Source: an uncultured Candidatus Udaeobacter sp. (GTDB taxonomy: Bacteria; Verrucomicrobiota; Verrucomicrobiia; Chthoniobacterales; UBA10450). Taken from it: 12,848 nucleotides of DNA. Every line of letters starts with the position of its first letter. Position 1 is the stretch's first letter. Below, one piece after another: positions 1-946 of the stretch. The stretch covers positions 1-12,848 of the forward strand of contig CATPBS010000261.1 of NCBI GenBank assembly GCA_955652715.1, read 5' to 3'. A program made the translations under genes and the position numbers. The notes beneath the pieces are model-generated. The model was not told the DNA's origin. It did not search any database and saw only the letters and a program-made list of their open reading frames with translations.

Positions 1-438
1 ATTGACGGCGAGTTTTCTGTCGAGTTGATCCTGACCATCTTTCATCCAAAGGCCGCATTGCACGACGGCGGAGTGATCATTCGCAACGGACGAATTGCAG
101 CAGCGGCATGCATTTTCCCTGTGAGTCAGCGGGAAACATTGGACCGCAGCCTGGGATTACGTCATCGCGCAGGGCTCGGGATAACCGAGGAATCGGACGC
201 CGTGGCAGTGGTCGTCTCCGAAGAGACGGGCGGCATTTCCATTTGTCACCGGCGGCGAATCGAGCGCAATTTCACGCCTGAAACGTTCCGTCAACGGATC
301 GCGGAAATTCTGTTACACAGCAAATATGAAGAGACTGATTCTGAACAATTGGCGCGCGAAGTTGATCTCCCTCCTGCTCGCGACAACGCTCTGGTACCTC
401 ATCAAAAAGAACGTAGCGACGACGCCGTCGCCGTCTGA
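1..438 (+). CDS. cdaA: Diadenylate cyclase CdaA (DacA), C-terminal part; 5' end outside the window
   Basis: CdaA condenses two ATP into the second messenger cyclic di-AMP at the inner face of the cytoplasmic membrane. The reading frame is open from base 1, so the N-terminal membrane helices and the start of the cyclase domain lie upstream of the window. What remains is the catalytic core of the DisA_N/DAC domain: an LHDGG motif (usual form DGA), followed by IAAAACIFPVS, the RHR motif within GLRHRAGLGI, and the family-typical VVVSEETGGIS stretch. The last roughly 40 residues are hydrophilic, resemble nothing in the family, and lie where a second ORF (326-475) overlaps in another frame, so this tail may be shaped by that overlap. 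The stop is TGA at 436-438. In Firmicutes cdaA is followed by cdaR and glmM; here no glmM follows. Family assignment is firm; the DGA-to-DGG change keeps a small residue and probably preserves activity (inference). Confidence 0.93.
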   Translation: MDGEFSVELILTIFHPKAALHDGGVIIRNGRIAAAACIFPVSQRETLDRSLGLRHRAGLGITEESDAVAVVVSEETGGISICHRRRIERNFTPETFRQRIAEILLHSKYEETDSEQLAREVDLPPARDNALVPHQKERSDDAVAV

Positions 439-475
439 AAGGCCGTCGCCGACGCCAGTCACCGAAACGCGCTAA
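326..475 (+). CDS. Small membrane protein resembling the N-terminal anchor of CdaR/YbbR, overlapping cdaA
   Basis: This 49-residue ORF starts at ATG 326, inside cdaA and in a different frame, and ends at TAA 473-475, overlapping cdaA by 113 bases. Its N-terminus is NNWRAKLISLLLATTLWYLI followed by KKN, which is the layout of the CdaR/YbbR anchor: a short N-terminus, an N-W-x-x-K pattern, then one hydrophobic helix ending in aromatic residues before the extracytoplasmic part. The remainder is a Pro/Ser/Thr-rich tail (TTPSPSERPSPTPVTETR) and there are no YbbR repeats. CdaR is the membrane regulator of CdaA and is encoded just downstream of it in Firmicutes; finding the anchor at that same place supports a real gene. 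Against it: it is short, no clear Shine-Dalgarno sequence precedes the ATG, and the overlap is long. The function, a minimal CdaA partner, is inference. Confidence 0.62.
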   Translation: MKRLILNNWRAKLISLLLATTLWYLIKKNVATTPSPSERPSPTPVTETR

Positions 476-484
476 AGGTGCGAT

Positions 485-946
485 TTAGCGCAAGAAACGC
501 GACAGATTCTCGTCTTCCCAGCGTCGCGCTCGCCGGTAATGAGGAAATTCGCGCTCTCGCCGGTTGAATTCGTCGGTGTGAACTCGCCGGCGGTTCGCCG
601 ACAACCTTTGATCCGGCACGACCGAATGCAGCATCTCGTGATAAAGCACGTAACGCAAAAACCAGAGGGGCACGAACGGCTGGTCAAGCGCATGATTGAT
701 CCGAATGACCCGATCTTCCTCCTGGATTGTGCCAAAAATGAAATGCTCTCTTGGGCGGTGCTTTCGTCGGCGCCCCCAGATGACGTTGTACCCGCGAAGA
801 CGTCCACGAAAATATCGTTCGTTCAAGTCATCAAAGATGGCCCGCAGATCGAAATGCGTTCCTTCGTGACGCAAATTCAACTGGCGCTGCATCGGTAGCT
901 TTGGATGAGCAAGCTTCCGTTTCGTCTTTTTCTTCTTGTTGGCCAT
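485..946 (-). CDS. SprT-like zinc metalloprotein
   Basis: A 153-residue protein of the SprT-like family (related to bacterial SprT and the protease core of eukaryotic Spartan). The zinc-binding HExxH is HEMLH at residues 103-107, and a third ligand is likely H123 in RVHTDEF. Upstream is the family pattern of an N-terminal helix (FDDLNERYF, residues 38-46) and a strand containing GTIQEEDRVIRIN before the helix that carries HEMLH. The extreme N-terminus is very basic (KKKKTKRK), which could help bind nucleic acid. The start ATG (944-946) has GGAG eight bases upstream (complement of 955-958). The gene converges on the cdaA side with 9 bases between stops and diverges from rodA. The protease activity and substrate of short bacterial members are not established; family membership is clear. 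Confidence 0.88.
   Translation of the reverse strand: MANKKKKTKRKLAHPKLPMQRQLNLRHEGTHFDLRAIFDDLNERYFRGRLRGYNVIWGRRRKHRPREHFIFGTIQEEDRVIRINHALDQPFVPLWFLRYVLYHEMLHSVVPDQRLSANRRRVHTDEFNRREREFPHYRRARRWEDENLSRFLR

Follow-up and report, generated by a model that had tools for sequence, protein, structure and literature searches.

The window analysed here is a 12,848-nt stretch of contig CATPBS010000261.1 from an uncultured Candidatus Udaeobacter sp. (Verrucomicrobiota; Chthoniobacterales), the source genome of which is 1.98 Mb in size and 69% complete. The window opens within cdaA, the gene for the cyclic di-AMP (c-di-AMP) synthase, and a second open reading frame (ORF) of 49 codons begins inside the 3′ end of that gene, at the site where cdaR is found in other bacteria (Table 1). 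The upstream frame matches the Pfam DAC family (E 2e-29) and is the one DAC match in the genome; its NCBIfam TIGR00159 score of 121.7 bits lies under the cut-off of 188.8, in line with a partial gene, the 5′ part of cdaA being off the contig. The original prediction, made from the sequence of this stretch, had described the ORF as a minimal CdaR that carries a CdaR-like membrane anchor and a Pro/Ser/Thr tail, lacks YbbR domains and overlaps cdaA by 113 bases in another frame. Its coordinates, frame and anchor sequence were right, the tail is real (mean Pro/Ser/Thr content 49% in 77 loci), and searches of Pfam and NCBIfam with the 49-residue product returned no family match up to E 1. Since an 81-position YbbR domain cannot fit into 49 residues and no family match was obtained, the ORF is referred to as a CdaR-derived, anchor-only form, or CdaR stub, rather than as full CdaR.

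Table 1. Features at the cdaA end of the window.
Feature	Position	Strand	Description or basis
3′ part of cdaA (DAC domain and C-terminal tail)	1..438	+	5′ part off contig; stop codon 436-438
Anchor-only CdaR (CdaR stub)	326..475	+	ATG start; 49 codons and stop; +1 frame relative to cdaA
Dual-coded overlap of stub and cdaA, 113 nt	326..438	+	Codon-position diversity, 67 loci
N8-W9-x-x-K12 motif, N-terminal end of anchor	347..361	+	Alignments A1 and A2; helix-face conservation
Hydrophobic helix, residues 13-26, predicted single transmembrane segment	362..403	+	Hydropathy; conservation
Pro/Ser/Thr-rich tail, residues 31-49	416..472	+	Hardly conserved past the cdaA stop
SprT-like metallopeptidase frame	485..946	-	Convergent; ten bases past the stub stop; Pfam score just under cut-off

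The stub is retained in nearly all close relatives. The best 80 of 391 matching stretches with a close cdaA were fetched, which gives 81 loci with the window; the fetched records are titled as Verrucomicrobia, Chthoniobacterales, Spartobacteria, Udaeobacter or Chthoniobacter. An anchor ORF occurs in 80 of the 81 loci, 77 of them found by a pattern with ATG, two with ATG but without W9 (L073 and L075) and one with GTG (L076), and ATG is therefore the start codon in 79. Among the 77 pattern loci, the overlap with cdaA measures 113 nt in 67, 104 nt in three, 122 nt in two, 116 nt in one and 35 nt in three, and is absent in one; it is 116 nt in L073, 110 nt in L075 and 4 nt in L076. The three values of 104 nt (L057, L059 and L063) arise because the pattern took an inner ATG, with an outer ATG nine bases upstream. 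ATG, open frame and W9 are all kept in each of the 67 gapless loci. Two loci of one metagenome-assembled genome, L068 and L045, form a pair that points to mixed strains or misassembly. Udaeobacter-like variants of 66 to 68 residues (P0001, P0004, P0012, P0020 and P0029) carry a second N-W-x-A-x-L-I-S-like motif before the anchor.

Selection on the two frames was measured in the 67 gapless loci as mean pairwise diversity per codon position, a measure that is not a formal codon model. Third-position diversity of cdaA falls from 0.524 upstream to 0.092 in the overlap, while the lowest value among 72 upstream windows of the same length is 0.498; after thinning to 32 sequences, the values are 0.547 and 0.114. 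For positions 1, 2 and 3 of cdaA, diversity is 0.12, 0.04 and 0.53 over window positions 1-240 as compared with 0.29, 0.09 and 0.09 in the overlap. By 30-base block, the third-position value passes from 0.565 (271-300) through 0.427 (301-330, which holds the stub ATG) to 0.104 (331-360). Read in the stub frame, the same DNA shows 0.09 at positions 1 and 2 and 0.29 at position 3, the pattern of a coding gene, and amino-acid diversity is 0.16 for the stub versus 0.32 for the CdaA tail. The cdaA frame is also constrained, though more weakly, since wobble diversity at four-fold-type residues of the stub is 0.29 versus 0.56 for such codons upstream in cdaA, and the position of the cdaA stop is kept by differing codons (TGA in 62 loci, TAA in three and TAG in two). 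Synonymous change is reduced in each frame over the overlap, which identifies it as dual-coding.

Recoding points in the same direction. In 100 random synonymous recodings of cdaA, an ATG and an open stub frame survived in a mean of 15.6 of the 67 loci (maximum 24), and mean anchor identity was 0.33 versus 0.86 observed; random recoding of the stub left a mean of 20.7 of 67 cdaA tails intact. The observed side of these tests is inflated by shared ancestry, whereas the within-gene comparison of codon positions is unaffected. The sequence R-D-x-x-L-V-P of the CdaA tail at first seemed a conserved CdaA motif, but its letters follow from reading the codons of the stub helix with a +1 shift, and it is interpreted as chiefly a by-product of stub conservation. 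Beyond the cdaA stop, diversity over stub residues 39-49 rises to 0.73.

The stub frame shares ancestry with the N-terminal part of CdaR. When a profile of 28 stubs from the class was compared with six full-length CdaR proteins, residues 4-43 were aligned (hhalign 97%, E 3.3e-11). An 18-stub model matched 76 of 288 genomes sampled across the phylum; inside the host's own class the matches are short frames together with three fusions (G096, G217 and G223), and beyond the class almost every match falls at the beginning of a frame of at least 320 residues. The exception is a 60-residue frame in G279, a member of another class, where it may be a stub as well. In the 40 matched genomes fetched, a DAC gene lies upstream of the anchor or in frame with it in every case, including a fusion with DAC in L133 and, in L128, a stub that starts 744 nt behind cdaA. 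In that last locus (G042; L128:844-1587, + strand), stub and glmM both lie behind this gap, in which no long frame was seen; in G072 (L130), a relative, the distance between cdaA and stub is 136 nt. With CdaR, in which PF07949 repeats follow an N-terminal transmembrane (TM) anchor, the stub shares the homologous anchor with its N-W-x-x-K helix, a place behind or overlapping cdaA and, in several relatives, a following glmM (L070, L073, L075-L080 and nine of the 40 fetched loci). It differs in lacking YbbR and, in this clade, in its long out-of-frame overlap with cdaA; in the window, glmM is not the next gene. Adjacency of glmM is usual in Firmicutes and not strictly defining. In length, the stub has 49 residues (31 to 111 where the stub is a separate gene in the class loci fetched) as against 303-356 in the six full-length CdaR proteins.

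Anchor presence follows the type of cyclase. In the phylum sample, where counts, like those of the class sample below, were tallied by hand, the anchor occurs in all 52 own-class genomes whose DAC match is of the CdaA type (E up to 1.2e-29). Forty-eight were recognized by the stub model, 16 of these counted from the model match alone, and four by eye (G005, G051, G105 and G237); all four are matched by a later model, which was built with three of them among its sequences. No stub-model match was obtained in the 39 own-class genomes with a weaker DAC (E 6e-24 to 9e-17), 12 of which were inspected and carry frames of 450-469 residues. Two such cyclases of ~455 residues, in genomes without a CdaA-type DAC (L156:565-1917 and L166:568-1935, both + strand), combine Pfam PTS_EIIA_2, DacZ_P and DAC, an architecture that may link c-di-AMP to an input like that of the phosphotransferase system.

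In a wider sample of 286 genomes of the class, the anchor model matches 175, YbbR 30, and both 21. An anchor match without detectable YbbR is found in 154 of the 286, a ceiling on the number of stubs, since weak YbbR domains escape detection. In the host's own order (n = 50), there are 46 anchor matches and no YbbR match; two of the remaining four members have CdaA (G350 and G372) and two have no DAC match (G257 and G416). As judged from these searches, the stub is a common state in the class and not one odd ORF. The view that the class has no YbbR, drawn from zero own-class matches in the first sample, was dropped in light of the 30 matches in the wider one. Own-class CdaR frames with YbbR are mostly 133-190 residues long with one YbbR match, those with two are 235-255 residues (G291, G300, G319 and G331), and there are a few longer one-match frames; these lengths, like all from the phylum and class model searches, run from stop to stop and are not protein lengths. 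Other lineages retain one, two or more YbbR domains. In the source genome, at 69% completeness, a YbbR (PF07949) search gave no match, and no YbbR-bearing cdaR was found in it.

The anchor also exists joined to the synthase. In CdaA of Verrucomicrobium spinosum (P0121, by source name), it forms the C-terminus, and the anchor motif stands at the end of 18 of the 120 listed homologues of a V. spinosum-like CdaA. G096 encodes another such CdaA-anchor fusion, and G223 combines CdaA and anchor with a YbbR-like part invisible to Pfam. By eye, a 484-residue frame of G290 (f70; L165:1162-2613, - strand) with DAC, a hydrophobic segment and a YbbR-like region is another CdaA-CdaR fusion. Conservation within the helix itself is one-sided: over residues 7-27 the helical moment peaks at 100 degrees (permutation p 0.0009 in A2 and 0.0024 in A1), and W9 and K12 together with L16, A19, W23 and I26 of the hydrophobic segment form one conserved stripe.

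The observations (a match to the N-terminus of CdaR, selection acting on the stub frame, the link with CdaA, the absence of YbbR, the fusions and one-sided helix conservation) make it likely that the ORF is a YbbR-less CdaR orthologue acting as a TM helix of CdaA supplied in trans. The checks that could be run from sequence data (start codon, motif and open frame in relatives, with no in-frame stops; strong synonymous constraint in cdaA over 326-438; no YbbR-bearing cdaR found in the incomplete genome) support the minimal-CdaR reading of the original prediction. Translation would start at the stub's own codon inside cdaA, and the product would insert as a single-pass helix with its N-terminus inside and its C-terminus outside. 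The conserved face would then pack on the TM part of CdaA, the likeliest partner because one-faced conservation exceeds what a plain tether needs and little else is conserved. In this manner the stub would serve in trans as the extra TM helix that some relatives carry in cis as a C-terminal fusion, and it may set the assembly or activity of the cyclase and hence c-di-AMP synthesis. With YbbR, held as the sensing part, gone, any input would therefore come via the membrane, CdaA itself or GlmM.

Several observations weigh against this interpretation. No Shine-Dalgarno-like signal was detected: duplex energy averages -1.2 kcal/mol at 77 stub starts versus -2.5 at 1155 control ATGs (of six gene starts scored in the window, one lies below -5). 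L068 lacks the anchor through a deletion, although the copy on another contig of the same assembly (L045) is intact, and in G350 and G372 (L163 and L164) CdaA is kept while a stub beside it was not found. W9 is absent in L073, L075 and three f7 rows of A2, and L18, outside the stripe, is likewise well conserved in A2. Finally, a predicted model of a CdaA-anchor fusion has a helical anchor-matching part and a predicted template modelling score (pTM) of 0.50; it offers no usable packing and was not used for that purpose.

The alternative that survives best, though unlikely, is that the CdaR-derived peptide serves another partner in membrane or wall synthesis, or recruits GlmM, and no longer acts on CdaA. 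The loss of the YbbR part would suit it, as would the lack of any glmM frame seen behind the stub in the window, L044, L065 and L067, where the old operon order has therefore loosened. However, the anchor accompanies the CdaA type of DAC and not the other, is fused to CdaA in several lineages, and has cdaA upstream or joined to it in 40 of 40 fetched matches. There is very little chance that ORF translation or local RNA tunes cdaA expression in cis with the peptide as a by-product: the long overlap inside cdaA and the lack of a Shine-Dalgarno signal are compatible with such a role, but the stub frame is conserved at the amino-acid level, and the anchor persists as a separate gene or fusion in other genomes. 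A programmed frameshift that joins CdaA and anchor in one chain is slightly less probable still, for despite the natural in-frame fusions, a start codon is kept in 80 of 81 loci and non-overlapping stub genes exist elsewhere. A spurious ORF that stays open through what the cdaA tail has to encode, to which the DNA common to both frames and the poorly conserved stub end beyond the cdaA stop might be ascribed, is rejected, given a sound 67-locus alignment, because the overlap freezes third and loosens first positions of cdaA, amino-acid conservation is higher in the stub than in the CdaA tail, and the stub has CdaR homologues and non-overlapping counterparts.

Two points concern the history of the locus. 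The original prediction allowed that the ORF was created by overprinting, which is most likely not so, given that full-length CdaR begins with a homologous stretch; de novo overprinting is rejected on the hhalign result. In eight measured loci with full-length cdaR, the overlap with cdaA does not exceed 14 nt, and stubs with short or no overlap exist; the long overlap is therefore most likely a derived state, probably reached through extension of the cdaA tail into the stub gene. Of the two layers, the stub frame would be the older and the cdaA tail the newer. As for YbbR, a tree of 69 CdaA rows places stub rows in one clade of 43, including two fusions and two apparent losses (support 100/95), with L162 apart; its root is not fixed, and L147 and L162 are joined long branches. 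L137 (full-length CdaR, no DAC frame by pattern) and L184 and L187 (no CdaR frame behind cdaA by script) were left out of it. Because stub rows form this large clade plus L162, YbbR was likely lost two times, and a stepwise path from full through two and one to no YbbR is plausible. The stub can itself be lost, as G350 and G372 have CdaA without it in what is an apparent secondary loss.

Stub orthologues are already annotated. The protein database holds 130 that match the ORF, and many of those listed bear the JGI name “YbbR domain-containing protein”; annotators have called them under that label, and the expectation that gene callers would miss the ORF does not generally hold. Among the literature matches listed, titles and the openings of abstracts revealed no paper recognized as treating an anchor-only CdaR or CdaR in Verrucomicrobiota. 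In PDB searches with a CdaR sequence and with profiles of CdaR and of the stub, no CdaA-CdaR complex was found among the matches listed, which include isolated YbbR domains (5hqh, 2kxy and 2l3u) and others that look like chance; 9g69 is, by title, a complex of the CdaA DAC domain with GlmM.

The classical gene order is given as cdaA-cdaR-glmM, and the mode of CdaR action on CdaA is called unclear (PMC8573169). Interaction of the two proteins via their TM domains is described (PMC10243994; PMC8573169), and among suppressors of a ybbR deletion, two are altered in the predicted TM3 of DacA (PMC5207132). CdaR has been reported as both activator and repressor (PMC8573169), and a stub effect could accordingly have either sign. 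Streptococcal strains are described with CdaA-CdaR fusion proteins (PMC10243994), in which, as in the V. spinosum-like and G096 proteins, the anchor is joined to CdaA; the fusions of the latter kind hold the anchor only, and the genes of the window are separate and overlapping. As in overlapping genes under purifying selection treated with OLGenie (PMC7531306), selection on one frame here perturbs synonymous change in the other, although the stub did not arise de novo: it is an old gene, now reduced, and homologues of it exist outside the overlap.

Taken together with its conservation, the stub suggests that the membrane helix of CdaR has a job of its own that is useful to the synthase. The chances are about even that in much of the class (members that source names mark as Udaeobacter-, Akkermansia- and Verrucomicrobium-like, and others) CdaA works with a small TM subunit derived from CdaR, sensor domains being dispensable and the anchor nearly indispensable. 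If true, the core job of CdaR everywhere would be that of an intramembrane helper helix of the cyclase, with YbbR as an optional input. The anchor-only form represents a natural separation of the two halves of CdaR and provides a test object of 49 residues. The locus is likewise a clear case of same-strand dual coding with a readable direction, in which the tail of one gene most likely grew over an old, reduced neighbour.

A minor observation concerns gene neighbourhood. In L143-L146, from four f7 genomes, a frame with the motif ITGTDTxxGKTY lies closely 3′ of the stub and looks like bioD.
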